Below are positions 1,285-40,903 of a stretch of DNA of 42,072 nucleotides, piece after piece; position 1 is the first letter of the stretch, and each line of letters opens with the position of its first letter. The translations under genes were made by a program, and so were the position numbers. Under the pieces are notes generated by a model that saw only the letters and a list, made by a program, of their open reading frames with translations, did not search any database and was not told the DNA's origin. Source of the stretch: a virus; IMG/VR virus record IMGVR_UViG_3300024255_000055, positions 1-42,072 of that record. One strand, given 5' to 3'.

Positions 1285-1542
1285 TTATACGAATTTTGCG
1301 AGGGTTTCAACAACCTTTACTAGTTTTTGTTTCATCTGAGTAATCTCTGCTTCTTCCCAGATCAGTTCTGTGGTGCGAATATCACCAAGTAGTTCGATGT
1401 ATTCTTCTTCTGTCAGTTCACCTTCACGTCTAGCATGGACTATATCGATGATGACCTCTCCCAGTCTACTGGCTTCCCAGTCTTCATCTTCGTTATCGAT
1501 AATCTGTTGAAGAATCCTTTCTTCTTCTGTATATCTAGTCAT
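1285..1542 (-). CDS. small acidic hypothetical protein
   Basis: An 85-residue acidic, probably all-helical protein rich in Glu (for example TEEERILQQIIDNEDED near the N-terminus). No known family is recognised. The ATG overlaps the stop codon of the upstream lipoprotein gene and has a GGGGAG ribosome-binding site, so the start is firm. It lacks a signal peptide and so differs from the exported proteins encoded just upstream. A sigma70-like promoter inside the lipoprotein gene (1907-1935) could express it and the next gene separately. Confidence 0.65.
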   Translation of the reverse strand: MTRYTEEERILQQIIDNEDEDWEASRLGEVIIDIVHARREGELTEEEYIELLGDIRTTELIWEEAEITQMKQKLVKVVETLAKFV

Positions 1543-1928
1543 TAGTCATATCTCCCCATAACCGTTAACGCAATTGCTTCTGATTGTTGCAACAATACAC
1601 CTTGTTTTAAGGCACAGTATCTTTGCGATACAGTTTCCTTTTCATACATGGGGTCTAGGGTTAAAGACATCTTATCCAATAGGTATTCAATGTCACTAGT
1701 ACCCTTAGTTTCCACATAAGTACTTAACCAACCATGCTTCTTATAGATGTCATCTATCATGTGTGTGATTAACACCGGATCAAGTTCACAATCTAACCAG
1801 ATGATTGCCCATCTTAAATCGGTTACACCAGCTGCCTCATTGTCATCCCATTTGGATGGCAACAAACTACAACCAGTAATCATTATTCCCAACAGGGAAG
1901 CTGTAATTATACTATAAAATTTTCTCAC
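1542..1928 (-). CDS. lipoprotein, possible outer-membrane partner of the adjacent coiled-coil protein
   Basis: A protein of about 128 residues starting at a GTG (MRKFYSIITASLLGI) placed six bases after a GAGG site. The signal sequence ends in a clear lipobox, ITGC, so the mature protein should start with a lipidated Cys. The mature part (about 108 residues) has several Cys and Trp and no recognised domain. It follows a single-span membrane protein with a long coiled coil. That pairing is reminiscent of inner and outer spanins (Rz/Rz1), although this mature domain is longer than usual and not proline-rich. The lipoprotein call is firm; the spanin role is inference. Confidence 0.7.
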   Translation of the reverse strand: MRKFYSIITASLLGIMITGCSLLPSKWDDNEAAGVTDLRWAIIWLDCELDPVLITHMIDDIYKKHGWLSTYVETKGTSDIEYLLDKMSLTLDPMYEKETVSQRYCALKQGVLLQQSEAIALTVMGRYD

Positions 1929-1935
1929 TGTCAAC
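1907..1935 (-). promoter_or_regulatory. possible internal sigma70 promoter
   Basis: Minus strand: TTGACA (1930-1935), 17 bp spacer, TATAAT (1907-1912), a perfect consensus. It overlaps the start of the lipoprotein gene, so transcripts would begin inside that gene and could serve only the two small genes downstream. It could be a real early promoter for them or a coincidence. Confidence 0.4.
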
Positions 1936-1936
1936 C

Positions 1937-2416
1937 TCAATCTGATAATGGATTATCTAAAGCTTTCTGCAATTTCTCGTCTAGTTTTTCTTCTAGTTCT
2001 TCTATCTCTTTTCGCAGTTTAGCATATGCTTGATCATAATCATCGGATAACTTATCTCGACGATTCTCAAATCTTTCTTCTGCATTATCTATACTATTCC
2101 TAACGTCCACTTCTACGGCCCGTATTTTATCGTCTATACGATCCACGTTCTTTTCAAGAGAAAGTAAATCATCACGAAGACCCGACTTGATATCACGAGT
2201 ATAGTCAATAGCTTCATCTAGTTTAGTTTCGATAATTGCATTACGGGACTCAATCTGATCCACATCAATGTTTTGAACAACCTCTCTCATGTCCATGTAG
2301 TCCTTATAGAACTCAAAACCAGCCCAAGATGCTCCGCCCAATGTAGACAGTGCGGTAAGTAAGATTGCCATCTTACCCCCAGTAAATTTCATTCCCGCAA
2401 ATTCTACCTCTGCCAT
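1937..2416 (-). CDS. membrane-anchored coiled-coil protein (candidate inner-membrane spanin)
   Basis: A 159-residue protein with one hydrophobic segment at about residues 16-36 followed by a highly charged, heptad-like region to the C-terminus (for example KLRKEIEELEEKLDEKL near residues 132-148). The topology is short N-terminus, one span, long coiled coil. The ATG has a GAGGAG site. A similar architecture is found in inner-membrane spanins, and a lipoprotein gene follows immediately, but proteins of this shape also occur in phages with no known role. It belongs to the late operon starting at 5179. Confidence 0.7.
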   Translation of the reverse strand: MAEVEFAGMKFTGGKMAILLTALSTLGGASWAGFEFYKDYMDMREVVQNIDVDQIESRNAIIETKLDEAIDYTRDIKSGLRDDLLSLEKNVDRIDDKIRAVEVDVRNSIDNAEERFENRRDKLSDDYDQAYAKLRKEIEELEEKLDEKLQKALDNPLSD

Positions 2417-2418
2417 TC

Positions 2419-2874
2419 TTACTCCTCAAATTTTAGTTTACGTAGGTTGACGATCTCTTGTTGCAACCTCATAACTTCTAATCTTTTTTTCTCTAATTCT
2501 AATTTGTATAGTGCGTTGCAGTTTAACCTTTCTTTAGGTGCACCGATTGGCACTGTGATCCTTGCGTATACACCAACGTTACGCATAAAGTCATCATTGT
2601 AAGGTAATAGTACTCTATTTGGATCGACAAAACTGCCGTTCCCCGTCCTGTATTGATCCCACGGATCGTTTTGATCCATGATACCGACAACACCAAACTC
2701 TAAGTTCGTGGATGAACCGATAGCTGCTGAACACTCAACGTCACCCGCTCTCACTCTATCAGACTGAAAACTCTGTGGCGACTGTGGTATTGCCAAGTTC
2801 AAAGAACCAGACTGTGCGTTCACCGAGCTCGACCAGAAACTTATTACCAAAACAAATAATAATATTAATCTCAT
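2419..2874 (-). CDS. exported protein with C-terminal coiled coil
   Basis: A protein of about 151 residues with a Sec signal peptide (MRLILLFVLVISFWSS, likely cleavage after VNA). The mature part is a beta-rich segment with two Cys (DVECSAAIGSS and RLNCNALYKLE) and a YARITVPIG strand, then a charged coiled coil (LELEKKRLEVMRLQQEIVNL). The ATG chosen overlaps the previous stop as ATGA; an ATG five codons upstream is also possible. No family is recognised. The design suggests a periplasmic or surface protein that oligomerises through its tail. Confidence 0.65.
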   Translation of the reverse strand: MRLILLFVLVISFWSSSVNAQSGSLNLAIPQSPQSFQSDRVRAGDVECSAAIGSSTNLEFGVVGIMDQNDPWDQYRTGNGSFVDPNRVLLPYNDDFMRNVGVYARITVPIGAPKERLNCNALYKLELEKKRLEVMRLQQEIVNLRKLKFEE

Positions 2875-3245
2875 TTTATTTTCGAACATATCCTTGAAGC
2901 GATTAAGGCCTTTGTGCCAGAATCTTTCACTAATTTAGATTTTGAACAGATATATGTTACTTTTTCACTGTCCGACTTTCGGACGTAAATGTTAACTGAC
3001 GCCCTACTCAAATACTTTACTCTTATAATTCTCTGTGCAACCGCAAAGGGGACTGGATTCCAATCACTGTCCCATACGTTTATCTGGTAGTATTCAACAT
3101 CTGGTCTACCATTCCACAGTTCCATCTCAGTAACCAAAACCGATTCGACATATGATTGAGTTAGTTCTGGATAAGTGGGTGTCCACTCGTGGGCCTTCAG
3201 ACCCACTGAGCAGAACACCAAACTTAGTATCATAACAAAGCGCAT
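2871..3245 (-). CDS. exported protein, periplasmic
   Basis: A 124-residue protein with an N-terminal signal peptide (MRFVMILSLVFCSVGLKA). The mature region is mostly beta strands, with segments such as VEYYQINVWDSDWNPVPF and a Cys near YICSKSK, ending in a basic SRICSKIK tail. I do not recognise a family. It is followed by a coiled-coil exported protein and preceded by a single-domain beta protein. No strong ribosome-binding site is visible, so translation may be coupled to the upstream gene, whose stop is four bases before this start. Confidence 0.62.
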   Translation of the reverse strand: MRFVMILSLVFCSVGLKAHEWTPTYPELTQSYVESVLVTEMELWNGRPDVEYYQINVWDSDWNPVPFAVAQRIIRVKYLSRASVNIYVRKSDSEKVTYICSKSKLVKDSGTKALIASRICSKIK

Positions 3246-3249
3246 ACTA

Positions 3250-3747
3250 TTATATAGCGATACACTCAGCTGTTACCACTGAACGATATTGTCCAGCAGG
3301 AAAAGCCTTGTCGTAACCATAATTAGCAGTCGATGCGACCTTAAACCATGTGCTTCCAGCAATAGTCAAGTCGATCTCTGTTATGTTATTGTACTCAATT
3401 TTGTTGTTGTCATAAGCAGACATAGCAGCATCAGATACTTCTGATACAGTTACATCACCAACCCAAACCACCACATCATTAAGAGTAGGACTCTCTGTGA
3501 ATTCATTCGGTCTTGAGATGACAGCCTTGTAGTAATCCGCTTGGATTACGTCATACCTAACGACAGGCGGTACACCACCGTTCGACAGATTAGTTGTCAA
3601 CGTATTTGGCGTTGGGTTACCATAGACACCTTGAGTGTCTGTTGTTACTACACACTTAGAATCTACAGAGCCCATAATTGGGACTTCGGCAGCTACTGCG
3701 TTAGACAACGTAAAAATGCCTAGTAAGGCAAATATATTTTTAAACAT
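3250..3747 (-). CDS. exported beta-domain protein, pilin/coat-protein-like
   Basis: A 165-residue protein with a signal peptide (cleavage probably after NAVAA) and an AGGAG ribosome-binding site. The mature part looks like a single all-beta domain with a Cys near each end (DSKCVV and AECIAI) and a final strand of the form FPAGQYRSVVTAECIA. That layout resembles chaperone-usher pilins and spore-coat-U-type subunits, which often end in an AG-x-Y-x-x-V motif. The resemblance is by pattern only, so the function is inferred. It could be a filament subunit displayed on the host or the virion. Confidence 0.6.
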   Translation of the reverse strand: MFKNIFALLGIFTLSNAVAAEVPIMGSVDSKCVVTTDTQGVYGNPTPNTLTTNLSNGGVPPVVRYDVIQADYYKAVISRPNEFTESPTLNDVVVWVGDVTVSEVSDAAMSAYDNNKIEYNNITEIDLTIAGSTWFKVASTANYGYDKAFPAGQYRSVVTAECIAI

Positions 3748-3774
3748 TATAGTGCTCCTATGTAAAATGTTTTT

Positions 3775-4641
3775 TTATTTTTTATACTGTAAATTTACTA
3801 ACTCTTTATGTAATAACTGTTGAGCGAGATTTTGTCTCCGTAACAATCGATTGTCTGGAAGACTTGCATCTTTCAAAACAACAGTTTCTTCATATTTCGA
3901 GTCCGGAAGAACTTCAAAGTAACTAACCGGAATATAATTCTGAGCCATCAATGACGTATGTTTACGTAATGATTCAGAGGCCAACAACGAGTTGTTAACC
4001 GTACCCAAAATCGCCTCCAGTCTCATATCTTCTATCTCTTCTTCCGACATCATTTTTTGACGATCTTTATCTTCTTCATCCTCATCACGTGGTTCCCAAT
4101 CCTTTTCTAGTTCTCTCTGAACCCACTGATCGTTAAGTGGATCATAAAACCCTATCTCCGGAATTACCGGAACAGGTGGGATATAGTCGGGACAAGATGG
4201 GTCTGTAGTAACACCAAAACACGTATCGTAAGAATAATTGTACAATACGGTGGCGCCCTCTACCGAACCTTTCCCTTCTACTTCAATCGACCCATCTCCC
4301 CAAAACTCTAATGGTATTGTATTGACGGGTACGAGTTTATTGATTGAGTTGCCAGGCAACCCACTCCAGTCATCTGCGTTCCTAAAGATATAACCACCAT
4401 TGATGGCATCTTCGTTTTGAACATAAACAACCATATCATCTTCTGCATTCTTTACCGTAGTATAACGGTATACGATTCCATTGACAGTCAATCCCGCATT
4501 CTGAGGCAGGATATTAGTCATAACCCAATTGAGGCCAAATGCGGCCGCATTGGGTGAAGTTTCGTTTACTTGTTCAGAGTAAGAGTAGGACGAGCAAACT
4601 AGCAATGCCAGCGCCGCCCAATAGTGTCTTGTTTTGGTCAC
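3775..4641 (-). CDS. large exported protein, unknown function
   Basis: A 288-residue protein beginning at a GTG with a GGAG site seven bases upstream. A signal peptide (MTKTRHYWAALALLVCSSYSYS) is followed by a beta-rich domain to about residue 150 with a Cys pair (YDTCFGV and DPSCPDY). A proline-rich linker (PPVPVIPEIG), a very acidic segment (EPRDEDEEDKDRQKMMSEEE) and a helical C-terminus follow. No family is recognised. The first 68 bases overlap, in another frame, the C-terminal membrane segment of the upstream gene. Confidence 0.65.
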   Translation of the reverse strand: MTKTRHYWAALALLVCSSYSYSEQVNETSPNAAAFGLNWVMTNILPQNAGLTVNGIVYRYTTVKNAEDDMVVYVQNEDAINGGYIFRNADDWSGLPGNSINKLVPVNTIPLEFWGDGSIEVEGKGSVEGATVLYNYSYDTCFGVTTDPSCPDYIPPVPVIPEIGFYDPLNDQWVQRELEKDWEPRDEDEEDKDRQKMMSEEEIEDMRLEAILGTVNNSLLASESLRKHTSLMAQNYIPVSYFEVLPDSKYEETVVLKDASLPDNRLLRRQNLAQQLLHKELVNLQYKK

Positions 4642-5179
4642 TCATCGGCTCCTTTTTCTTATCTTCATCTTCAACGGGTAAATCATCAGTATTTACTGAC
4701 CATGCAGCTTTAGCTTCCTCACCTATTAGTCCATCAAACGGACAAGGTGTACCAGCATTCATCATAGCGTCAAAAACCCGTGGGTCTTGACACATAAGAG
4801 ATACTGCTGCAACTTTCATACCCATATCGAATAATGTCTTAGAATTTTTTAATCTTTCACAGTTATCGTCTGTTACTTGTGTGCCTGTTGAGATACCTAG
4901 TATCTGAGTTTGGATTGCACCCGCAACACCAAACGTACATAGGTCTGAGTTGGAGGTATTGATCGTAGGAGAGATCGCTGAGGCCGGAGGCGACTTCAAC
5001 GTAGTAGTAGTATTACCATTAGTGGTAACGGTAGACTCAGTTATGATAGGTTCGATTGCAGGCGTTACGGGTTCATCCGTACCCCCGCCACCATCTTGAG
5101 CGTTAGCGTCTTCTGCCAGTAATCCGAAAGAGAACACACAAAGTGCAATCAAGGACAATTTTCTTATTGCGTTATACAT
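4574..5179 (-). CDS. exported protein with C-terminal hydrophobic tail; first gene of late operon
   Basis: A 201-residue protein with a signal peptide ending ANAQ, then a low-complexity Gly/Thr/Pro segment. A conserved-looking core follows (SNSDLCTFGVAGAIQTQ, NCERLKNSKTLFDMGMKVAA and CQDPRVFDAMM), with several Cys. After an acidic, lysine-rich linker it ends with a short hydrophobic stretch (GGAGIASLLVLLLL) that could anchor the C-terminus. I believe similar proteins occur in other marine T4-like phages but cannot verify it. It directly follows the late promoter at 5213-5220, so it should be made late, perhaps as a virion or envelope-modifying protein. Confidence 0.7.
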   Translation of the reverse strand: MYNAIRKLSLIALCVFSFGLLAEDANAQDGGGGTDEPVTPAIEPIITESTVTTNGNTTTTLKSPPASAISPTINTSNSDLCTFGVAGAIQTQILGISTGTQVTDDNCERLKNSKTLFDMGMKVAAVSLMCQDPRVFDAMMNAGTPCPFDGLIGEEAKAAWSVNTDDLPVEDEDKKKEPMSDQNKTLLGGAGIASLLVLLLL

Positions 5180-5212
5180 ATTATACCCATTGAAAATAAT
5201 TCATATCAAGGG

Positions 5213-5220
5213 TATTTATA
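5213..5220 (-). promoter_or_regulatory. T4-type late promoter of the exported-protein operon
   Basis: The minus strand reads TATAAATA, the exact T4 late promoter -10 recognised by gp55-containing polymerase. It lies 33 bases upstream of the ATG at 5179, giving a leader of about 25-30 bases. The gp55 gene is in this window (34669-35295). A TTGATA/TATAAT pair lies nearer the ATG, but its -10 touches the start codon, so it is less likely to be used. Confidence 0.75.
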
Positions 5221-5596: not shown

Positions 5597-6349
5597 TTAG
5601 TAGTATTTCTGAAAAAGGTGGTGAAGTAGTTCCGCATAGTATCTGTGCGATTCTGTGCCGGGATGTCCATTCTCTGCAATGTCTTGAAACTTTTCTCTTG
5701 AAAGTGAGTATAGATCATCTCCGACACCCAAACCCAATCTGGAAGATTTCCTTAATCTACTGAACATATTAGATATCTTGGTAGTGTAATCTTGCCATTC
5801 GGGACGATTGGACTTGTATATCATTTTAATATTTTCAAGGTTTCTTTCATGGAAGCCACCCTGAACCAACTTAATACCTTTAGCGTCACATAGGTCTTGG
5901 AGGGCCAACATAAACGCCAATCCGTGAATAACATCGGTCTTGTATGTCTGACATAGATTATACCATTGATGCATGGCGCCCCATCGTTTAGACGCTAACC
6001 AGTGAATCCTATCAGCAGAGAACTGAGTCATACAGTCACTTCTCTGTACCTTCGATTCATATTCGGTATGATCAAGTTCGTGTGACCCTTCTGCCAATTC
6101 ATTTCTTTGCCATGCTGACCAAAGGACAACAACGTGAGTAATATCATCATTAGCAGCAAGAGCCTCAATTGTGTCACGGAATATCTTCTCGTTTCCGTTA
6201 CCACAGGCTGCAATGTTCAGAGGTTTAACGCCCAACTTTTTCGCAAGGTGATATGTGAAGGTTAATTTCTGGTGTGTAGGCGGATCGTTGTAACAGCCGG
6301 GAAGTTCATCTCCCCACACAAAACTACATCCACATGTTAATAATTTCAT
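5597..6349 (-). CDS. SGNH/GDSL-hydrolase-like protein (copy 2)
   Basis: A 250-residue protein with SGNH-hydrolase features. Block I is CGCSFVWGDEL with a candidate nucleophile Ser near residue 9, an Asn-containing block (NIAACGNGNEKI) lies around residue 48, and a C-terminal GHPGTESHRYYA holds the likely catalytic His. These enzymes cleave or transfer ester groups, often acetyl groups on sugars. It is a diverged tandem copy of the next gene upstream (shared GDELPG, LTF-H-LA, DLCDAKGIKL and GHP-G-H-YYA motifs). Its ATG overlaps the upstream stop as ATGA. The substrate is unknown; phage envelope or host polysaccharide is a guess. Confidence 0.7.
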   Translation of the reverse strand: MKLLTCGCSFVWGDELPGCYNDPPTHQKLTFTYHLAKKLGVKPLNIAACGNGNEKIFRDTIEALAANDDITHVVVLWSAWQRNELAEGSHELDHTEYESKVQRSDCMTQFSADRIHWLASKRWGAMHQWYNLCQTYKTDVIHGLAFMLALQDLCDAKGIKLVQGGFHERNLENIKMIYKSNRPEWQDYTTKISNMFSRLRKSSRLGLGVGDDLYSLSREKFQDIAENGHPGTESHRYYAELLHHLFQKYY

Positions 6350-7179
6350 GGTGCTCCTGGCGTCATGTTGTTAAATGTCTCATAAAGCATCTGTGCATAA
6401 TACGTATGTGTATTTCCACAAGGATGCCCCAGAGGATATAAGAAGCAATCCGGTTTTGATTCAGCAATACTTGACATGTCTCTGCCGTCACCAAAACCAA
6501 GTTTACATTCTGGTCTAAGATACTTTATATAGTGCTTTATTTCTTTTACTGCAAAGGGTAGAACATCTTCTTCTTTGAGAACACATTTGACATTATTCCA
6601 CAGATCATAATGTATGACTCCTTGAATCAACTTAATACCTTTAGCATCACATATGTCTTGCATTATGGTCATGTAGTTTAGATGATGGAGAACTGGAGTT
6701 GCCATGGTGTAGGCATGTTTGAACCAATTTATACAGGCCTGTTCATGTTCTTTTTTCTTTTCGTCTGCCCAGTGATCGTTCCAACCTCTTAATCCAAAAC
6801 GTAAACTTCCCTGATAATGATCTGGGATTAATTGATTCATATTGCATTCTTGGAAAATCCAAACCTGTTCGTCAGTAGGTCTGTGATCCATACTAACAAT
6901 TTCGGTTCTACCCCAACTAGACCACATGATAACCATATAGTCAACTTGTTTAGAGGTTTTCTGTAAGAAGGTGGTGCCTCTTCTTAGAATTTTTTGATTG
7001 GACGCACCGTTAGCCCCTAAGTTTACATAGTCACGGTCTAAGTGTTCTGCTAGTTTATGAGAGAATGTGAGATGATGATGGATAGGCGGCATGGGCCTAC
7101 CCTTCTCATTGAGTCTTCTAGAGCCAGGCAGTTCATCGCCTTGGGTGAAACTATCACCATTAGTCAGTAGTATTCCCAT
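6346..7179 (-). CDS. SGNH/GDSL-hydrolase-like protein (copy 1)
   Basis: A 277-residue protein with SGNH-hydrolase motifs: GDSFTQGDELPG near residues 8-19 (candidate nucleophile Ser), NLGANGASNQKI around residues 53-64 (Gly and Asn blocks) and GHPCGNTHTYYA near residues 251-262 (candidate His). It is paralogous to the gene immediately downstream and translationally coupled to it. The pair is encoded after a DUF3310 protein and an adenylate-forming-like protein. The role is probably ester hydrolysis or acyl transfer; the substrate cannot be told from sequence. Confidence 0.72.
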   Translation of the reverse strand: MGILLTNGDSFTQGDELPGSRRLNEKGRPMPPIHHHLTFSHKLAEHLDRDYVNLGANGASNQKILRRGTTFLQKTSKQVDYMVIMWSSWGRTEIVSMDHRPTDEQVWIFQECNMNQLIPDHYQGSLRFGLRGWNDHWADEKKKEHEQACINWFKHAYTMATPVLHHLNYMTIMQDICDAKGIKLIQGVIHYDLWNNVKCVLKEEDVLPFAVKEIKHYIKYLRPECKLGFGDGRDMSSIAESKPDCFLYPLGHPCGNTHTYYAQMLYETFNNMTPGAP

Positions 7180-7624
7180 GTGTCCTATCGTGCTCGAATA
7201 ACATCAAAAACCCGTAATGAATAATCTTCATTATATCTTTTCGATGATCTTCTGCTGTTCCCTTTTTTCCGTAACGTCCATTGTATTTATCAACATTGCC
7301 AGAAAAGAAACCCATACCATGACCACGATCAATGATCACTTCAGACGATTGTAGTCCGCCTTGACCATAGTGTGCACCATAGGTAGAATCGATGTAGTTC
7401 TGAAACTCTTCAATAAGTTCACCTTCACGAAATTTATATTCAATTTCTTCCATATCATAATCCAAGTTGTAGTCACTATCAGTGACCGTAAATATTTCTT
7501 CACCGGATGCTCGTTGGGATTCCATTGTTTGTTTTCGTTTGATTTCGCCTAGGTGCATCCGATTCATTTCATTCCACTGTTGTGGTGTGATATCATCGAT
7601 GCTGCCGTTATTTGTTTTCGCCAC
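7160..7624 (-). CDS. DUF3310 (phage nucleotide-kinase-like) protein
   Basis: A 154-residue protein starting at GTG. The C-terminal half has the DUF3310 pattern: YGAHYGQGGLQSSEVI, then GNVDKYNGRYGKKG and an EDHRKDIMKIIHYGFLML helix. DUF3310 proteins are widespread in phages and often labelled nucleotide kinase, but the activity is not well established. The N-terminal 60 residues are an acidic, helical extension (with YDMEEIEYKF) of unknown role. It overlaps the neighbouring genes on both sides, consistent with operon expression. Confidence 0.7.
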   Translation of the reverse strand: MAKTNNGSIDDITPQQWNEMNRMHLGEIKRKQTMESQRASGEEIFTVTDSDYNLDYDMEEIEYKFREGELIEEFQNYIDSTYGAHYGQGGLQSSEVIIDRGHGMGFFSGNVDKYNGRYGKKGTAEDHRKDIMKIIHYGFLMLFEHDRTHGNTTD

Positions 7625-9062
7625 TGTTCAAGTACCTCACTCTGTTGACTTCATATTCATCAAATCCATATTCAAACTGGTTCTTTAAAGCATGCCAGTC
7701 CCTATACCTGCTATTTTCCAAACAGAAGGCCATCTTATCAGAAACACCTATGTCTGTCAAGCCTAAGGTGTCTAGAAGTTTACTTTGTTGTGGTGTGGGT
7801 TCTTCAAACACTGCAAGATAGTTTAGAGCGTTCTTACGCAACAACCAGAAATTATTGTGGCCCAATATTTGTTCTACACGTTCTTGGAATGGATGTACCT
7901 CAACAAAACCCTTGAAGACGTACTCCGCATTATCCAACTTCTCCAACTTAAACGATAGGGGATAATACTTGGTATCATTATGAGAACGAACAAAGCACAC
8001 ATTCTTCTGTGGACTGTGTACTACCTCATAGTAGTTGTCCGCTATGAACCCTACACTGTCTTCAACATATGATCCTCTTATTGGTTTTACAAAAAGAGTC
8101 ATACATTTGGATCGGGTCTCACCATACATAATTGCACAATTCAATTGTCTCTCATCACACAGGTCATGAAGTTCTGGTGTGATCACTCCCATAGGGGAAA
8201 CGAACTCAATTCTCTTTGCTTGTTCAGGCGTAATATTTCTAGTACAAACTTCCAAGGTTTCTAAATTCTTAAAGAAGATAACCTTTCTATCATCCATCTC
8301 AAAGACGTTCTGTAAGGCCTTACCTAGACCACCCATTTGCCACATCTCTATCCTATCCCACCAGTTCACAAAGTAGTGTTTTGTTGAACCCATGAAAGAG
8401 GCACACGTATATGTGATGAAAGACATGCCATGCAACACATTAAAAGAATGGATACCAATAGTGTCCTTCATGTTAAACAATTTATAGTGACGATGAGCTA
8501 GACCCCAACACTCCTTGTGAGTATAATATTGGTACTCAAATCCGTCTTCGAACTGACCATCCGAATAGGTGACCCAAAAAGGATCGTCAGGTAAAACATC
8601 TGGATGATGAAACTCAATCGGTTTATTATAGTTTTCAATGTCTACAGTATCGACGTTTATCATTTCAACCTCGACAGTATCCTCGTAGTACTCTTCCTGA
8701 ACTCCATCCAACATCTTAAGTGTCAAGGAATCCCAAAATCCAAATGATGCGGGCAAGTCTGTCGCAACCATAGGAACCTTTGCTTTCGGGTTCCAAGCCA
8801 AATTAGCAGAAAACACTTGTGCACCTAGTTCTGCACACGCCATAACAAGAGCGGTAGTCTTCACATTATTCTTCGAAACACCAAGACCGACCAATTGACC
8901 CTTGCGTAGTCCATACTCATTTGACAGGTATGCTTTCCATTTGTCAATAGTATTCCAGAAACGTTCCTTGTCATAAGGTGTTGAATCACCCAACATCTGA
9001 TTCATGACGTTTCTGAGTTGAAGCTGTTCTCTGTTTTGAATTATGTATCGATCAATAATCAT
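7608..9062 (-). CDS. adenylate-forming (ANL superfamily)-like protein
   Basis: A protein of about 484 residues resembling acyl/aryl-CoA synthetases and other AMP-forming ligases. The N-terminal region has GLRKGQLVGLGVSKNNVKT and MACAELGAQVFSANLAWNP, the typical ANL start. WVTYSDGQFEDGFEY replaces the usual Thr/Ser/Gly-rich ATP loop, and MYGETRSK resembles the YG-x-TE adenine motif. The degenerate ATP loop and shortened C-terminal domain suggest an altered or lost ligase activity. ATG at 9062, after GAGG, is preferred over an upstream TTG. The substrate is unknown. Neighbouring SGNH and oxygenase genes suggest a modification pathway, but that is inference. Confidence 0.6.
   Translation of the reverse strand: MIIDRYIIQNREQLQLRNVMNQMLGDSTPYDKERFWNTIDKWKAYLSNEYGLRKGQLVGLGVSKNNVKTTALVMACAELGAQVFSANLAWNPKAKVPMVATDLPASFGFWDSLTLKMLDGVQEEYYEDTVEVEMINVDTVDIENYNKPIEFHHPDVLPDDPFWVTYSDGQFEDGFEYQYYTHKECWGLAHRHYKLFNMKDTIGIHSFNVLHGMSFITYTCASFMGSTKHYFVNWWDRIEMWQMGGLGKALQNVFEMDDRKVIFFKNLETLEVCTRNITPEQAKRIEFVSPMGVITPELHDLCDERQLNCAIMYGETRSKCMTLFVKPIRGSYVEDSVGFIADNYYEVVHSPQKNVCFVRSHNDTKYYPLSFKLEKLDNAEYVFKGFVEVHPFQERVEQILGHNNFWLLRKNALNYLAVFEEPTPQQSKLLDTLGLTDIGVSDKMAFCLENSRYRDWHALKNQFEYGFDEYEVNRVRYLNSGENK
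7732..7760 (-). promoter_or_regulatory. possible internal sigma70 promoter before the DUF3310/SGNH genes
   Basis: Minus strand: GGC-TTGACA (-35 at 7755-7760), 17 bp spacer, TAAGAT (-10 at 7732-7737), lying inside the 3' end of the adenylate-forming-like gene. The GC context before TTGACA matches other promoters here. The start codon of the DUF3310 gene is about 100 bases downstream. It could be a chance match within coding sequence. Confidence 0.35.
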
Positions 9063-9723
9063 TTTCAATTTCCTCAATTAACATATCACGTAACTGTATT
9101 GCATTTTCATCACGGGAATCATTTTTACCATATCCGCAGAATTTATATGCGAGAGTAATACGTTCTCCACCAGCGTAGGCGGCATGCCAAAATATATTTT
9201 CAGGTTCTTCTTTTGGCCCAAAGTAATAGTGTCTGCACTGCCAACCTTTGACATCTGGAATAGTGACTACTTCGTCTTTCTCATTATCATAATAAGTAAA
9301 GTAACCATCACCATCTGACCAAGTAAAGAGAACTTGATAGGCAGAGGCATCCCAGTTAGTGTGCCATCCAACAAAACCGCCTGGCGGATAATACGACAAA
9401 AGGGCACTAGTGTGTGCCCCTATCTCAGCAGCGAATTCAAACTTGACCATGTTCATATATGAAGACCAAACATTCGGGTCTTCACGCACCATCTTTCCAA
9501 TCGGTTGTGCGAAATGCCTGTCCGGTGGGCCTACCAGTCCACCCTTGAGAGATACGTCTCTAAGGTATTCTTCACTGGTGTAATACTCACCCTTCTCCAT
9601 GTCCTCAGTAGAACTGTAAGCGTAGTACTTGGGGTTTCTGTAACCCTCTGTAGAGAACATCTCATCTTTGAACTTATCAAGAGTAACAAGAAACGTCTTG
9701 TTGCGAATCGTGACTTCGGACAT
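9052..9723 (-). CDS. 2OG-Fe(II)-oxygenase-like protein (paralogue of 38537-39184)
   Basis: A 223-residue protein with a double-stranded beta-helix pattern: YYPPGGFVGWHTNWDASAYQ (His121, Asn123 or Asp125), FTWSDGDGYFTYYD, then a distal FWHAAYAGGERITLAYKF with His180 and Arg188. These fit the iron-binding His/Asp/His and 2-oxoglutarate-binding Arg of 2OG oxygenases, though the exact acidic ligand is uncertain. The 38537-39184 protein has the same layout. The target may be a protein, lipid or small molecule. It overlaps both neighbours, so it is part of an operon. Confidence 0.6.
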   Translation of the reverse strand: MSEVTIRNKTFLVTLDKFKDEMFSTEGYRNPKYYAYSSTEDMEKGEYYTSEEYLRDVSLKGGLVGPPDRHFAQPIGKMVREDPNVWSSYMNMVKFEFAAEIGAHTSALLSYYPPGGFVGWHTNWDASAYQVLFTWSDGDGYFTYYDNEKDEVVTIPDVKGWQCRHYYFGPKEEPENIFWHAAYAGGERITLAYKFCGYGKNDSRDENAIQLRDMLIEEIENDY

Positions 9724-12789: not shown

Positions 12790-13831
12790 ACTCAGCAATC
12801 TCATCCATGTCTACTTGAGTAGGAAGACCAATCTGGTATTGCTTTTTCAGGAACTCAGCGAAGTCGGTGAATTCAAAGATTGGTGTCCAGAATTCTTCTT
12901 TGAGAGTTTCTGCTAACCGTACTTTCGGTTCAGAGACCTCTCCGCTTTCCCTATCAACACGAGCATACCAACCATTGGAAGGTTTAATACAATAACCACC
13001 AGCAAGAGCAGCGTCCAACAAACCACTAAAACGCTCCACGCCACCATCCCAAGAAACAGAGATAGGGATTTTACTTTTCTCTTTAACATATCGAGACTTT
13101 TCAACATTAATGATGAAATCATATCCAGTAACCTCCGTACCAGTTTTATTCTGTCTGCGTCCAAGAATCCAGATGTTGTCTGCACTGTAGTAAATACCAG
13201 TACCACCACCTACGACATCTTTCGGAAACAAACCAATTTCTTTATATGTATGGTTTACGGCCAACAAAGGAATATTTTTCATTGCAAGGTATGGAGTTGT
13301 CATACGGAACAGACCTTTCAGTGCCTTCGCACGTGACATGTCTGCAACAGACTTCTCGTTGATTGCATCTTCAAGTTCTTTCTTAGATGCGAGGTTACCA
13401 ATAGAATCAATAACCACAATAACATTGTCAGTTCTTTCCATAGATTCAAGTTGACTGATTAGGTCAAACTTAAGTTCTTCTACGTTTGTGATAGGAGTAT
13501 GTAGAACCCGACTAGTGTCAATTCCAAACTGTGTGAAATAAGACTGGGGTGAACCAAACTCACTATCGTAAAATAGCATGACCGCATCTTTTTTCTCCCG
13601 TAGATAAGCACCCGCCATCAATAGGGCGAATGACGTTTTAAAGTGTTTACTAGGGCCTGCTAGTACAGTCAGGCCAGGCGTAACACCACCATCGATTGAT
13701 CCCGACAATGCCACATTAACCATTGGCACATCGGTGGTCACCATATCTTTTTCAGTAAAGAATTTACTCTCCGACAGTACTTCCGTTGCCTTGATCTTTG
13801 AGTTCTTCCTCAGTTTGTCCATCACGCTCAT
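12776..13831 (-). CDS. uvsX: UvsX RecA-like recombinase
   Basis: A RecA-family recombinase of about 351 residues (T4 UvsX 391). Walker A is GPSKHFKT (59-66), Walker B is VIVVIDSIGNL, and MAGAYLREKKDAVMLFYDSE and VGGGTGIYYSADNIW are typical of UvsX. It coats single-stranded DNA and catalyses strand exchange with UvsY in phage recombination-dependent replication. The start chosen (MSVMDKL) has GGAG six bases upstream; a longer reading frame adds 14 residues. Its beginning overlaps the end of the UDP-sugar dehydrogenase gene by 68 bases. Confidence 0.95.
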   Translation of the reverse strand: MSVMDKLRKNSKIKATEVLSESKFFTEKDMVTTDVPMVNVALSGSIDGGVTPGLTVLAGPSKHFKTSFALLMAGAYLREKKDAVMLFYDSEFGSPQSYFTQFGIDTSRVLHTPITNVEELKFDLISQLESMERTDNVIVVIDSIGNLASKKELEDAINEKSVADMSRAKALKGLFRMTTPYLAMKNIPLLAVNHTYKEIGLFPKDVVGGGTGIYYSADNIWILGRRQNKTGTEVTGYDFIINVEKSRYVKEKSKIPISVSWDGGVERFSGLLDAALAGGYCIKPSNGWYARVDRESGEVSEPKVRLAETLKEEFWTPIFEFTDFAEFLKKQYQIGLPTQVDMDEIAEYAEA

Positions 13832-14795
13832 TATCATCTCCAAATGTAATATTATTAACTTTCTCTCTTTCATCCAACTCGTAGTGTCTACGATATCCAG
13901 AATTGATATCTAGAACTTTCTCTAACAAGTCAAACGAAATAGTCTCACCAGCTTCATTCTTAAACTCAGAGAATTTAAGAAAAGCCATTGTGTCTTTAGG
14001 TAGACACGCACCACCAAACCCACGCTTCCTGTCATAGCCAGGCACACGAGTGTGTCCAATACCTACACGAGGGTCATTACCCATTACACGTGTAATAATA
14101 TTGTAACTACAACCAAACGCATTCACCAGATCAAAGAACTGGTTGAAAAACGTTACCTTGGTCGAAAGGTATGAATTGATTCCGTACTTCACAAAGGATG
14201 CCTCTGCGGCTGACATACGGTAATATTGATCCGACTTACACAAACTGAAGATATCATAAATCTCTGTCAGTTCACCAGTGGCGTTTGGTGCACCACCCAA
14301 TACATGGAACTCCGCATTCACGAATTGTTCCTCTGCGTTCTTCTCTGTGAGGAACTCAGGATTGTATACGAGTCTTTCCACACCATCTTCAAACATAGAG
14401 TTGTATAGTCTATCGATGATGTCTGGTGTGATTGTTGATTTAATAACAACCAACGCTTCGGTGTGTTCTATTAGTTTGAGTACCGCATCTTCTACAATAG
14501 ACGCATCAACAAATCCAGATTCAGGATTCATTGGTGTTGGTGCACATACAAAAACACACATAGGACTGAACTCAACCATTGAGTCAATGTCCGTATCATA
14601 CTTCGGGTCAACAATATGTAAGTCAACTAAAGGATGACAGAATGCATACTCTACTGCACGACCAACAAAACCATGCCCTACAATACCCAAACGAAATGGG
14701 TTTGTTGGACTGATCGGTTTCTGTTTGTCCGCTGTTGTCAAACCATCGGTGTCGGTTAACCCCTTCGGTTTATATTGATCAAAATCATCTGCCAT
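13764..14795 (-). CDS. UDP-glucose/UDP-sugar 6-dehydrogenase-like protein
   Basis: A protein of about 343 residues of the UDP-glucose/GDP-mannose dehydrogenase family. The NAD-binding GHGFVG is at residues 40-45, YNPEFLTE at 144-151, and the catalytic Cys264 is in GFGGACLPKD. It would oxidise a UDP-sugar to a uronic acid with two NAD+. An N-terminal tail of about 33 residues is extra. The protein is shorter than bacterial enzymes (about 390-450), so the C-terminal UDP-binding domain is reduced. The adjacent epimerase suggests a UDP-glucuronate to UDP-galacturonate route. ATG at 14795 follows GGAG. Confidence 0.85.
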   Translation of the reverse strand: MADDFDQYKPKGLTDTDGLTTADKQKPISPTNPFRLGIVGHGFVGRAVEYAFCHPLVDLHIVDPKYDTDIDSMVEFSPMCVFVCAPTPMNPESGFVDASIVEDAVLKLIEHTEALVVIKSTITPDIIDRLYNSMFEDGVERLVYNPEFLTEKNAEEQFVNAEFHVLGGAPNATGELTEIYDIFSLCKSDQYYRMSAAEASFVKYGINSYLSTKVTFFNQFFDLVNAFGCSYNIITRVMGNDPRVGIGHTRVPGYDRKRGFGGACLPKDTMAFLKFSEFKNEAGETISFDLLEKVLDINSGYRRHYELDEREKVNNITFGDDNERDGQTEEELKDQGNGSTVGE

Positions 14796-15825
14796 TTGTA
14801 ACATCTCCTATTTTCGGTATCCATTCGGCATACCATTGATAAAAATTAGTAACACCGTGTTCTATTGACACCTTCGGTTTGTACCCGAATGCCTGAAGCT
14901 TTTCGGTGTTACTCCAAGTCTCTGTTGTATCAGCTGGGTGTTTAGGCACCATATTCATTATAGCTTTCTTGCCACAATTCTGTTCTATTGAATTAATAAA
15001 GTCCAATAGATTTACCTGTTCACCCCGTCCGATATTGAATATTTCATTTGATTCAATTTTACCAGAGTCAAAGTTCTCCAACACAATCTCAATACCATCT
15101 AGGATATCTTCGATGTATGTGAAGTCTCGCTTCATATCCCCATAATTATACACGTCAATTGGTTCTCCGGCAAGTATTTTTTTCGTAAATTGAAAAAGAG
15201 CCATGTCCGGTCTGCCCCAAGGGCCGTATACAGTGAAGAATCTTAACCCAACATTTTCAATTCCGGATATCTTGAATTGACATTCATTTACATACTTGGT
15301 ATAAGCATAAGCGTTGAGTTGGTGTGCCTGTACATTATCTTCTTTCCATCCGTCTTCAGTGATAGGTGTACCACCATACACAGAACTAGTAGAGGCGTAA
15401 ATTACTTTGGGTCTATCTTCGGGTTTCAACTGATTAATAAAATCGATCATACACTGAGTACCGTTGATATTGTTAGAGTGGTACTCACCCTCTTTACCAA
15501 AAGAATCCCTTACACCCGCATGAGCGGCTAGGTGAATTATATAATCAAACCCATACTTGGTATCATCCGCTCTTCTATCGGGGTCTGCGATTGCTTGGTC
15601 TGAGTTAGTGAACACGTGATCCCACAGAGAATTACTTCTGATATCAATCTCTGTCCAAGTTGGTAGTTTGAAATAATCTCTTCGTCTGACTTTAAGTCTA
15701 TTTTTGTAAAGATGGTTGTTGAAGTTGTCAATCATAATAACATCATGATTTGCCATAAGGCGATTGTGAAGTTGTGATCCAATAAACCCCGCTCCACCAG
15801 TTACTAATATTCTTTTTCTATCCAT
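14785..15825 (-). CDS. NAD-dependent sugar epimerase (UDP-glucuronate 4-epimerase-like)
   Basis: A 346-residue extended short-chain dehydrogenase. GGAGFIG at residues 10-16 binds NAD. The catalytic residues include the STSS segment (Ser near 147) and Y173-x3-K177 (YAYTK). LRFFTVYGPWGRPDMALFQF and RDFTYIEDILDGI are typical of UDP-glucuronate/galacturonate epimerases. It probably interconverts UDP-glucuronate and UDP-galacturonate made by the adjacent dehydrogenase. The ATG overlaps the primase-like gene stop (TAATG), with AGGA upstream. Products may modify phage DNA, virion or host surface. Confidence 0.85.
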   Translation of the reverse strand: MDRKRILVTGGAGFIGSQLHNRLMANHDVIMIDNFNNHLYKNRLKVRRRDYFKLPTWTEIDIRSNSLWDHVFTNSDQAIADPDRRADDTKYGFDYIIHLAAHAGVRDSFGKEGEYHSNNINGTQCMIDFINQLKPEDRPKVIYASTSSVYGGTPITEDGWKEDNVQAHQLNAYAYTKYVNECQFKISGIENVGLRFFTVYGPWGRPDMALFQFTKKILAGEPIDVYNYGDMKRDFTYIEDILDGIEIVLENFDSGKIESNEIFNIGRGEQVNLLDFINSIEQNCGKKAIMNMVPKHPADTTETWSNTEKLQAFGYKPKVSIEHGVTNFYQWYAEWIPKIGDVTNGR

Positions 15826-19681: not shown

Positions 19682-19710
19682 ATTATACATGGATCAGAAC
19701 GGGTTGTCAA
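19682..19710 (-). promoter_or_regulatory. sigma70-like early promoter of gp43
   Basis: Minus strand: TTGACA (19705-19710), 17 bp spacer, TATAAT (19682-19687), a perfect consensus. The expected leader is about 20 bases before the gp43 ATG and contains AAGG. The -35 overlaps the last bases of the upstream glycosyltransferase-like gene. Confidence 0.8.
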
Positions 19711-20510
19711 GTTAAAATTTTGAAGTTGCGAGATCGTGTCCAAGGTTCCTTAATGTATTTTTCTGGGTATCCATGATGGTCTTGAGTGACCGCCAACTCT
19801 TTAGATACTACTTGAGTAGTTGGGTTCTTGACGGAGTCATCCGGATTTGGGTCGGGATAATTGTAGGCCGTGAAGATATCTCTCCCAAAATAAAGAGTAC
19901 TACAATTGGCATAAGGATGAATGCAGATATTTTCTTTTCCAAAGTAATCACGTTTGCTCAGGTAGTGTGTTATGTAATTTTTAAAAAGTCTTTCCATGAT
20001 ACCGTATGGGCCACCGTTGATCCAGAATGCTTGTTCTGATAACAACTGATACATCCACTTAGCACAATGTGGAGATAACTGATAACATCCCATAAACAAA
20101 CCTATGTTTGCGTAGTCAATGTTCTTATCAACAATATACTTTAGTAGCTTACGAAATTCATTTGAATGATGTGAACCTTCCCAAAGATACGAGTCATGTT
20201 CCATAACCAAGAATCTTTCTTCCGACTCTCCCTGTTGTCTCATCAACTCCCAGTGAGAACACATACCAGCTTTCTCTGTTGGGGAATGATCGTCGGGTTG
20301 ACTACCTGCCAAATCGACTTTTGCCAAAGAAGGTAACCAATTATACCTCGCACTTATTTGTGTGAATTCAGGATGGTCGGGTGTTATCGCATCGAAGGTT
20401 TCAAACTCAATAGTCTCATCATCTATTAATCGTTGAAAAGACAGTCTAGAAATTTCTGCATACGACTCTGAACGATCATCATCTTTTATAACAATTTGTT
20501 TTACTTTCAT
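19707..20510 (-). CDS. glycosyltransferase-like protein (GT25/LPS type)
   Basis: A protein of about 267 residues. CSHWELMRQ followed by ERFLVMEHDSYLW resembles the S-H-x-L and LxxEDD-like metal-binding segments of family 25 glycosyltransferases. A later GGPYGIMERL and the YFGRDIFTAYNYPDPN region have no clear match. Such proteins transfer sugars to lipopolysaccharide or protein. ATG at 20510 is preferred to a GTG three codons upstream; neither has a good ribosome-binding site. A UUCG-capped hairpin lies 16 bases upstream. The target is unknown, so treat the enzyme class as probable. Confidence 0.5.
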   Translation of the reverse strand: MKVKQIVIKDDDRSESYAEISRLSFQRLIDDETIEFETFDAITPDHPEFTQISARYNWLPSLAKVDLAGSQPDDHSPTEKAGMCSHWELMRQQGESEERFLVMEHDSYLWEGSHHSNEFRKLLKYIVDKNIDYANIGLFMGCYQLSPHCAKWMYQLLSEQAFWINGGPYGIMERLFKNYITHYLSKRDYFGKENICIHPYANCSTLYFGRDIFTAYNYPDPNPDDSVKNPTTQVVSKELAVTQDHHGYPEKYIKEPWTRSRNFKILT

Positions 20511-20525
20511 ATCACACACTAATAT

Positions 20526-36608: not shown

Positions 36609-38104
36609 GACTTATCCTTTAGATTAATTGGGAAAATTTTATATTTAAAACCTTCTCTACTATATATCTTTATTCTTTCAGCAGAATGTTTCAGGGTGAA
36701 ATTCCGATAACCTCTACAATGTAGATCATCTGATATATCATAAAGGTTAGTAGCAACCCCATTGTCACTTTTTCGTAACCCTCTACCGATAGACTGAAGT
36801 ACCTTAACTTGTGATTTACTTGGAGAAGCAAAGACAATATTATGGAGATTCCTAATATTAATCCCAGTAGAAAAAGTTCCAAGGCTTGCAACGATGATAG
36901 CATTTTTTTGACCCTCTACGATACCACGTATCTGTTCTCTATCTGAAGCATCAACTTCACCGGACACATAAAATACTTTTCGATTTTCCTCAGATTCTCT
37001 TTTTATTAGATCATATAAAACTTTACCGTGTTTTTCTACAAACTGAAACAGCACCAGAGTGTTGCCTTCTTGATCCAAAGTAAGTCTCTTTATGAATTGA
37101 TTTCTTCTCTCATTAGTTACTATATATTCAATTTCTTCTTGATAGGTTTTGCCTTTCATTTTGACGCATTCGTCATTGTGATATCTTAGTAACAATACTT
37201 TGATATCTAAGTCTGCGAGTTGATTGTCCTCTTGTAGTTTTACTGTGGTAGTGACCTTGAACACGGGCCCGAAAAGACCTTCAAGTACAAGTTTGTTCGT
37301 TTCAGTACCATCAAGTGTACCTGTAGTACCGATACGATATCTAGCATTGACACACTTATCCATGAGAGTGCCTAAAGATTTGGCTTTAAATAGATGTACC
37401 TCATCCCCAAAAACACAATGGAAATCTTCAAACCATTCTCTACCAAATTTGTAGATAGATTGCCACGTAGATATAATTATCCTCTTGTCGGTAGTCTTGT
37501 CCTTACCTGAGTAGATCATGTGGCACTGATTCTCTACGTCATATCCGTAGTCTCTGAAGTCTTTATACATCTGTTCTACTAAAGAGGTTGTTGGTACTAC
37601 AACAAGAATCTTTCCATTCTCGTTCTTCTCAATCCATCTCATTACATTATAAATGATAAATGATTTACCGGAACCCGTAGGTGATAGAAGAATTGCACGT
37701 TTGTTCTCAATGCTGTGAGATACGGCCTCGTACTGATAGTCGTAAGGTTCGAAAGGCGCTTTGAGGTTTCCAAGGAACTTCACCAAGTCTGGGTGGGATA
37801 TCTTGTTCTTTGCGTTTGGTGTTCCCCACTCATAGGAGTCTATGATTTGTAGGGGATAGAATCGGTCTCCGCAAAATTTACGTAGTTGGGTATACAGACC
37901 GACATGAATCTGTTTGGTGACTTGATTATAGAGTTTGATCTTACCATCCCACTGGCGTCTCTTAAAGGCAGGCATAAACTTATGGCCCGGCACAAAGAAA
38001 GAGAAGTACTCACGTAACTCTTGTTCCTGTGAAGGGTTAGATTCTACTGCCATGTAAGAGTTGCTAAGCATCTTAACTCTTATAGTGTTATCCGCCGGAT
38101 TCAA
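36605..38104 (-). CDS. uvsW: UvsW-like DNA/RNA helicase
   Basis: A 499-residue superfamily 2 helicase (T4 UvsW 503). Walker A is SPTGSGKS (141-148), the DEVH box is GDEVHLF, and TGTLDGT and QSIGRGLRKSD are motifs III and VI. It remodels branched DNA and unwinds R-loops, switching origin-dependent to recombination-dependent replication. A TTG start with GGAG five bases upstream is accepted because the N-terminal strand TIRVK aligns with T4. It overlaps uvsY by 17 bases. Confidence 0.94.
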   Translation of the reverse strand: MNPADNTIRVKMLSNSYMAVESNPSQEQELREYFSFFVPGHKFMPAFKRRQWDGKIKLYNQVTKQIHVGLYTQLRKFCGDRFYPLQIIDSYEWGTPNAKNKISHPDLVKFLGNLKAPFEPYDYQYEAVSHSIENKRAILLSPTGSGKSFIIYNVMRWIEKNENGKILVVVPTTSLVEQMYKDFRDYGYDVENQCHMIYSGKDKTTDKRIIISTWQSIYKFGREWFEDFHCVFGDEVHLFKAKSLGTLMDKCVNARYRIGTTGTLDGTETNKLVLEGLFGPVFKVTTTVKLQEDNQLADLDIKVLLLRYHNDECVKMKGKTYQEEIEYIVTNERRNQFIKRLTLDQEGNTLVLFQFVEKHGKVLYDLIKRESEENRKVFYVSGEVDASDREQIRGIVEGQKNAIIVASLGTFSTGINIRNLHNIVFASPSKSQVKVLQSIGRGLRKSDNGVATNLYDISDDLHCRGYRNFTLKHSAERIKIYSREGFKYKIFPINLKDKS

Positions 38105-39772: not shown

Positions 39773-40903
39773 ATGATTTTATCTAGACAAGATGCATGTT
39801 ACGCCGCTGGTGTATTCACAGACTTCTTTGCGAACTTTGATCGCATTGATGACTACATGCGTAAAATAAAGTTAGAACGTATGGAGACTTTTCCATATGC
39901 ATTGCCTGGCATGGGGCCTGAGACTGATCTCTTTGACAAGTTTGACATGCACCCGAATGATATGGAGTTTGTTGTATCCCCGTGTAAACAGGATCAGTTC
40001 ATGTCATATATGGAGATTACTACGTCTGCACCTGTAGAGTCTTCAATCCCCGGCAAACAAATGTTGTGGTTAGTTAAAGAAAAGAACACGGGCATGGTTA
40101 TGGGTATGATTCGATTTGGATCACCAACCATTAACTCACGTCCACGTAATGAATGGTTGGGTAAACCACTAGACACCATGAGTCCTGAAGTAATGTCAAG
40201 GTTCAACAAGTCAGTGATTATGGGTTTCAACATTGTACCCACTCAACCATTTGGGTTCAACTATCTTGGCGGTAAGTTACTTGCAGCCATCTGTTGTTCC
40301 CACACAGTGCGTGAAGCACTGAACAAGAAGTACGATGCGAACATCTGTATGTTCGAAACTACTTCTCTGTATGGGTCATCCAAGTCATCGTCTATGTACG
40401 ATGGCATGAAACCCATTTTGAGGTTTAACGGTCTGACAGACTCAAACTTCGCACCGCTTATTAATGATGATAACTTCCGTAAACTTAATGATTGGTTTAG
40501 GGAAAGGAACGGCGGAGAATTCTTAGTACCAGCTGACGCATCTTCACGCAAGTTGAAGACTCAGACTAAGATGGCATCTATCATCAAATCCTCTCTCAAA
40601 CAACATGATGAGGGTGCATATGCGAAGTTCTGTCAGACCTTTTTAGATGCAAAGGGACTTACTGAAAAGAAACGTTCCTTCTATTCAACATACGGGTATG
40701 AGAATGTACCCGACTTTCTTAACCTCAAGACTGATACTCTTGTTAAGAAAGATAACTTTGATCGTTTCGAACTTGAGAACCTCACCGAATGGTGGCGTAA
40801 GAAAGCAGGTAAACGATACGAGTCTTTGAAGTCAGACGGTAGACTGCGTTCCGTTGTGGAGACTTGGAACACTAACGCAGAAGATATCGATATTATTCGA
40901 TAA
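39773..40903 (+). CDS. DruA (DUF4338)-like protein, first gene of early operon
   Basis: A 376-residue protein. MLWLVKEKNTGMVMGMIRFGSPTINSRPRNEW and SVIMGFNIVPTQPFGFNYLGGKLLAAI resemble the DruA/DUF4338 layout: a GNAT-like strand pair, a surface loop with Arg, and an N-x-LP...NL-x-x-LL region. The C-terminal part is helical and basic. DruA is part of the Druantia anti-phage system in bacteria; in a phage such a protein could be a takeover or exclusion factor. The similarity is by pattern, so moderate. ATG follows GAGAGG. It is oriented opposite to nearly all other genes. Confidence 0.5.
   Translation: MILSRQDACYAAGVFTDFFANFDRIDDYMRKIKLERMETFPYALPGMGPETDLFDKFDMHPNDMEFVVSPCKQDQFMSYMEITTSAPVESSIPGKQMLWLVKEKNTGMVMGMIRFGSPTINSRPRNEWLGKPLDTMSPEVMSRFNKSVIMGFNIVPTQPFGFNYLGGKLLAAICCSHTVREALNKKYDANICMFETTSLYGSSKSSSMYDGMKPILRFNGLTDSNFAPLINDDNFRKLNDWFRERNGGEFLVPADASSRKLKTQTKMASIIKSSLKQHDEGAYAKFCQTFLDAKGLTEKKRSFYSTYGYENVPDFLNLKTDTLVKKDNFDRFELENLTEWWRKKAGKRYESLKSDGRLRSVVETWNTNAEDIDIIR

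Follow-up and report, generated by a model that had tools for sequence, protein, structure and literature searches.

We analysed a 42,072-nucleotide stretch of viral DNA (IMG/VR record IMGVR_UViG_3300024255_000055, positions 1 to 42,072; hereafter the window) that carries, between positions 1542 and 5179, seven adjacent genes on the minus strand, which we named gA to gG from the upstream end. The window covers part of the genome of a T4-like phage and holds genes of the gp41/43/44/46/47/UvsX type; it matches positions 85,266-127,332 of a contig of 147,636 bases (IMGVR_UViG_3300024264_000006; the parent contig) at 99.988% identity across 42,067 bases. An earlier note, made from the letters of the window alone, had described the seven genes as encoding one lipoprotein, one membrane-anchored coiled-coil protein and five proteins with Sec signals, all read from a perfect late promoter. 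This observation was confirmed: all seven open reading frames were found at the position and on the strand that the note had given, and signal peptides are present in gA to gE, although gA is a membrane protein, which leaves four soluble Sec proteins.

The first two genes overlap by 68 nucleotides. The product of gA (4574-5179, minus strand; 201 amino acids) has a signal peptide, a conserved domain containing Cys and a C-terminal hydrophobic helix, which accompanies the signal peptide in 79 of 79 relatives; it belongs to phrog_20531 (2e-16), a PHROG of unknown function. The product of gB (3775-4641, minus strand; 288 amino acids, GTG start) has a signal peptide, a putative beta domain, an acidic linker and a C-terminal coil, and gave no match in library searches. 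Both gC (3250-3747, minus strand; 165 amino acids) and gD (2871-3245, minus strand; 124 amino acids) encode exported single-domain proteins with two invariant Cys residues (positions 32 and 162 in gC), the first predicted to be pilin-like and the second PapD-like. The exported product of gE (2419-2874, minus strand; 151 amino acids) has a conserved, Cys-containing head and a C-terminal coiled coil, so that the beta head and coiled tail proposed in the earlier note fit its sequence; it belongs to phrog_37374, also a PHROG of unknown function. Finally, gF (1937-2416, minus strand; 159 amino acids) encodes an N-terminal membrane segment followed by a coiled coil and a conserved C-terminal NPL, and gG (1542-1928, minus strand; GTG start) encodes an accessory lipoprotein with the lipobox ITGC. 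Searches of the cluster proteins against Pfam, NCBIfam and PADLOC returned nothing meaningful, and a sequence search of the PDB with profiles of gA to gE returned nothing; library matches to gF were rejected as coiled-coil noise.

A predicted late promoter and a conserved gene order

The sequence TATAAATA, an exact match to the -10 box of T4-type late promoters, lies at 5213-5220 on the minus strand, 33 nucleotides upstream of gA, such that the cluster carries the upstream box by which a T4-type late gene cluster is recognised. The three copies of TATAAATA in the window are no excess over chance (2.67 expected), but the box is enriched upstream of gA across relatives (39 of 77, compared to 40 of 1540 control windows, 2.6%), where it is most often found 27-46 nucleotides from the gA start. 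The parent contig has 20 copies, most of them 24-47 nucleotides upstream of a gene on the same strand, and a copy precedes genes resembling tail sheath and tail tube proteins. Late transcription of the cluster, as the earlier note had read it from the perfect box, is thus a well supported prediction.

To examine conservation, we scanned IMG/VR with gA, which yielded at least 560 relatives, and pooled complete clusters from two scans into a non-redundant set of 79. The order and strand of gA-gB-gC-gD-gE-gF were identical in all 79; gA and gB overlap in every one (median 68 nucleotides) and gD and gE nearly touch in every one, while gE and gF are at times separated by an additional gene. Since gG was present in 16 of the 86 sequences searched, we consider it accessory and outside the conserved core. 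The earlier note had asked whether the proteins might be unrelated across genomes and the cluster not conserved; we found related proteins in one order throughout. The recurrence of this six-gene block in a single order in 79 of 79 marine clusters, under a late promoter, points to strong selection for an envelope function besides lysis.

Two further families recur at these loci. One, of about 155 amino acids with a C-terminal membrane segment (MVEIAAALSMAGSAYNMIK...), separates gE from gF in many relatives (L021:9761-10228, L040:3548-4015, L050:7090-7557); in the parent contig (G001) it is found at 37224-37697 (L175:17224-17697), distant from the cluster. The other, encoded after gF, is an exported protein whose sequence ends in WKVAF or similar (AEFRHFGDWT...; L004:10027-10494, L019:9466-9900, L050:8166-8606, L079:10708-11115), which is possibly an outer-membrane protein.

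Relatives of the gC-gD-gE trio in Vibrio phages and bacteria

We found gE relatives in 68 Vibrio phage records and a gC homologue in 179. In the Vibrio phages pVp-1, Thalassa and 51E28.1, the two small exported genes before gE correspond to gC and gD, yielding the same order gC, gD, gE (Thalassa gp150-152; pVp-1 77-79; 51E28.1 gp41-43), all annotated as hypothetical; hhalign comparison of the Vibrio phage and T4-like forms gave E-values of 2e-9 for each of gC and gD and 9e-13 for gE. The trio is also found in Vibrio phages 1.205.O, D81 and BP15, with a short lipoprotein-like open reading frame coming next. Tail-fibre genes immediately precede the Vibrio phage trio, and the genes just downstream of it encode, in Thalassa and pVp-1, a holin and an M15 endolysin. 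The large genes preceding the trio in the Vibrio phages were considered as possible ushers; we rejected this identity, since they have the look of tail-fibre genes and no signal peptides.

Scanning bacterial genomes for gE revealed chromosomal clusters in Nitratireductor soli and Photobacterium chitinilyticum. The Photobacterium cluster comprises a pilin-like gene, gD and gE; the Nitratireductor chromosome (L190 2289-7378) has three tandem gD-gE copies with gC-like genes in between. Among the genomes sampled, gE was found in 5 of 199 from the order of Nitratireductor and 18 of 151 from the family of Photobacterium, and the bacterial gE loci that we inspected had an adjoining gD and usually a gC-like gene as well. 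One Vibrionaceae protein has an OmpA domain (PF00691, 1e-20) fused to gE, and the open frames of two further gE genes are of comparable length; the OmpA domain is a peptidoglycan-binding anchor. Neither Pfam nor NCBIfam supplied a family name for the bacterial gC or gD proteins. When profiles from T4-like phages, Vibrio phages and bacteria were compared with signal peptides removed, the matrix was block-diagonal, with like matching like at 81-99.5% and unlike pairs below 4%. These profiles argue that gC, gD and gE are each homologous across the three groups, in which they are also arranged adjacently.

The gE tree places the Vibrio phages in one group and the T4-like phages in another, and because its deep joins are weak (64/81), the tree does not set the direction of transfer. 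A possible, still tentative reading is that the trio is an usherless and so far unrecognised pilin/chaperone-type assembly system of the surface or periplasm of Gram-negative bacteria. In this reading, at least two phage lineages would have captured the system and would build it, with the phage-specific anchors gA, gB and gF, on the envelope of the host as infection ends. We found no description of the trio in the literature searched, most subscription journals being outside its scope. Since the trio in bacterial chromosomes is unnamed in Pfam and NCBIfam, a solved phage version would annotate the bacterial system, and would also test whether pilin-type subunits can be handled without an usher; with the trio present in cultured Vibrio phages, the question is already accessible to experiment.

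Predicted folds of gC and gD

We built AlphaFold models of gC and gD from 39 and 45 relatives, respectively (predicted local distance difference test scores, pLDDT, of 89.6 and 89.9), and compared them with the PDB by Foldseek. For gC, the CFA/I pilin CfaB ranked first, followed by CsuA/B, the PapG pilin domain, FimG and Caf1; the pilins were intermixed with staphylococcal adhesins of immunoglobulin (Ig) type, with E-values of 1e-3 to 5e-2 and template modelling scores (TMq) of about 0.3-0.4. For gD, the first five matches were PapD, FimC, Caf1M, FimC and FimC, with SfaE and FaeE lower (best E-value 3e-4, TMq 0.5-0.6). A combined gD profile, with signal peptides trimmed, weakly matched PapD_N (26-36%, controls below 0.3%); a value of 60% was discarded because that alignment had included the signal peptides. 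A structure search of BFVD with gC gave no informative match. The pilin-like single domain that the earlier note saw at 3250-3747 is supported by the model and its pilin matches. Taken singly, each match is moderate; the stronger argument is that gC and gD, which are adjacent, separately point to both halves of one pathway.

A candidate envelope assembly beside the lysis genes

Neighbouring genes suggest a link of the cluster to the lysis phase. A holin-like, endolysin or spanin gene lies within 3 kb downstream in 22 of the 62 clusters with that much downstream sequence, and an endolysin or spanin gene, counting these alone, in 12 of the 62, compared to a back-of-envelope expectation of about 4-8% (about three lysis loci per 147 kb) for relatives that are not independent of one another. 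In phage HTVC023P an M15 peptidase is encoded within a few genes after gA, and in ctXG6705 a lysozyme follows gA. The parent contig also encodes, at 59261-59590 (L176:19261-19590), a holin-like membrane protein that contains two hydrophobic segments (DSNGDGKVSDEEHAMF...) and has no PHROG match; its relatives are found repeatedly close to the cluster and close to endolysins. The same contig has overlapping i- and o-spanin genes at 47,523-48,318 (phrog_739, phrog_812) and an endolysin gene at 112,472-113,077 (phrog_938), so that the module would add to the ordinary lysis genes and not substitute for them.

We favour the explanation, to which we assign a probability of roughly 45%, that gA-gF is a late-transcribed export module for an exported, envelope-attached assembly that is built late and acts around lysis. 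Starting from the export signals, the co-linearity of the genes, the late promoter, the homology of the trio and the fold resemblances of gC and gD, we infer that gC and gD bind one another, that the proteins assemble and that the assembly acts in the envelope around lysis. In this scheme, gC would be a pilin-like Ig-fold subunit; gD would be a one-domain PapD-like partner, probably using strand complementation to hold or cap gC within the periplasm; and gE might be the envelope anchor for both. The exported gA and gB, together with gF as an inner-membrane coiled coil, could form a phage-specific scaffold tying the assembly to the membranes, and the whole would act in the envelope beside the canonical holin-endolysin-spanin system, not instead of it. 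To our knowledge, exported multi-protein assemblies are unexpected in lytic tailed phages.

Several points weigh against this explanation. The fold similarity is moderate (TM-scores of 0.3-0.4 for gC and 0.5-0.6 for gD, best E-values 1e-3 and 3e-4), and the Ig fold is a common one. We found no usher or other secretion channel. The cluster is about 22 kb from the endolysin in this phage, and late genes generally cluster with lysis genes, such that neighbourhood alone is weak evidence.

The main rival, which we consider unlikely, is that the proteins form a fibre or coat on the surface of the infected cell, which would exclude superinfecting phages or make cells or phages adhere to one another, in functional parallel to the curli of pelagiphages. 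The pilin-like and chaperone-like folds of gC and gD would suit such a fibre, as would the position of the Vibrio trio directly after tail-fibre genes, and the curli gene clusters of pelagiphages offer a precedent (PMC7029224, PMC9599517). However, there is no usher, no CsgG, no amyloid repeats that we could see and no known exit through the outer membrane, and late expression is late for exclusion. Of the structures that the earlier note had proposed (a secreted or surface-displayed filament, envelope-modifying complex or lysis apparatus, made late), the filament finds no support in an usher or CsgG. Late expression, export, conservation as a unit and the pilin-like domain are supported, and the interpretation of the note as a whole is partly supported.

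A lysis apparatus that would replace the spanins is disfavoured, since the same genome encodes canonical spanins and an endolysin elsewhere. The related proposal that gF and either gG or gB act as a spanin-like pair in disrupting the outer membrane, with the other proteins as accessories, draws on the topology of gF, the lipoprotein gG and the nearness of gA and gF to endolysins in podophages. We judge it improbable, given the canonical overlapping pair in the parent contig, an i-spanin homologue in 9 of 12 contigs that carry the cluster (fragments included), the absence of gG from most clusters and the failure of gF and gG to match a spanin family. It is just as doubtful that the proteins are periplasmic regulators of lysis timing, like the T4 antiholin RI, that might sense envelope state or superinfection: several small periplasmic proteins, a late promoter and holin-like genes nearby would agree with this, but six is a large number of co-conserved genes for a timer, and library searches showed no similarity to known antiholins. 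Least probable is that these are virion proteins exported for assembly or attached at release, since, despite a late promoter of the kind common to tail genes, the assembly of tailed phages takes place in the cytoplasm, most members of each exported family have export signals, and there is no PHROG structural match.

Other genes of the window

Judged by DNA polymerase, Phage C48C1 is the nearest phage in culture (69%); tblastn with gA and gC found no match in it. Directly upstream of the cluster are two neighbouring, related SGNH-hydrolase-like genes (5597-7179, minus strand) with weak DUF6071 matches, preceded by a gene of 489 amino acids (7608-9077) that by eye looks like an AMP-forming ligase and has no Pfam match. 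The replication module includes genes for a UDP-glucose dehydrogenase and a nucleotide-sugar epimerase (13764-15825, minus strand), an arrangement shared with Phage C48C1; also among the replication genes are a sulfotransferase-like gene (PF03567; 23144-23902, minus strand) and a glycosyltransferase-25-like gene (19707-20519, minus strand), both below cut-off. One of the few plus-strand genes (39773-40903) encodes a protein with a DruA-like domain (PF14236, 8.5e-11; phrog_19197, 5e-161), a lone Druantia-type domain in a T4-like phage.

Comparison with known systems

Chaperone-usher pili share with gC and gD the arrangement of adjacent exported genes, and the gC and gD models match best the pilin and PapD-like folds of the PDB. 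In contrast to those systems, the usher (PF00577) is not near the trio, and gD has one domain (about 105 amino acids), compared to the two-domain chaperone, and does not match PF00345. Among 11 trio-bearing bacterial genomes, 7 had no usher, and in the others it was on another contig or at least 0.4 Mb away. The terminal pilin motif has a penultimate Tyr and a Gly 14 residues from the end; gC instead ends in AECIAI, the Vibrio phage forms in SCVAQ or similar and the bacterial forms mostly in CE. We therefore rejected a chaperone-usher pilus, for which no usher was near any cluster and none was present in 7 of 11 carrier genomes.

Two-component spanins (Rz/Rz1, T4 PseT.2/PseT.3) resemble gF and gG in pairing an inner-membrane coiled coil with an outer-membrane lipoprotein, but the genome that carries gA-gF has true spanins encoded by genes of their own, and neither gF nor gG matched a spanin PHROG.

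Curli gene clusters are carried by pelagiphages (PMC7029224, PMC9004378, PMC9599517). This type VIII secretion system (CsgG, CsgF, CsgA/B-like, FecR and cyclase; HTVC008M gp14-19) is, like gA-gF, a block of exported proteins in marine T4-like phages. However, it has CsgG (PF03783), which we detected in 0 of 10 records of gA-gF relatives, with positive controls detected, and the two have no recognisable gene in common; comparison with HTVC008M by eye, with no dedicated search, showed no CsgF or curlin repeats. A curli identity was thus rejected on the absence of CsgG from these ten records.

Pelagi- and roseophages (HTVC115P, HTVC023P, CRP-207, Mosig) have gA and gF homologues in similar order near endolysin or terminase genes but, unlike the gA-gF cluster, lack gC-gD-gE. 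By hhalign, their proteins match gA at 100% and gF at 98-99%, and a protein of Achromobacter phage JWAlpha matches gA at 97%; in the pelagi- and roseophages another exported protein directly follows gA, and a gF-like protein is encoded within a few genes. Homology of that exported protein to gB in the pelagiphages was plausible by eye and failed by profile (1%). Two roseophage gF homologues (L170:3292-3873, L084:8219-8641) are named lysozyme in GenBank; since they are membrane-anchored coiled coils, these names look like mis-annotations. In Pelagibacter phage HTVC115P, a gene annotated as a toxin-activating lysine-acyltransferase lies about 5 kb downstream of the gA homologue (L082:12285-12734). 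The Vibrio phages, by comparison, share gC, gD and gE in order, with no gA, gB or gF seen alongside. Without claiming a new function for it, we conclude that gA-gF with its trio is a conserved gene system that stands outside every named family and system tested.

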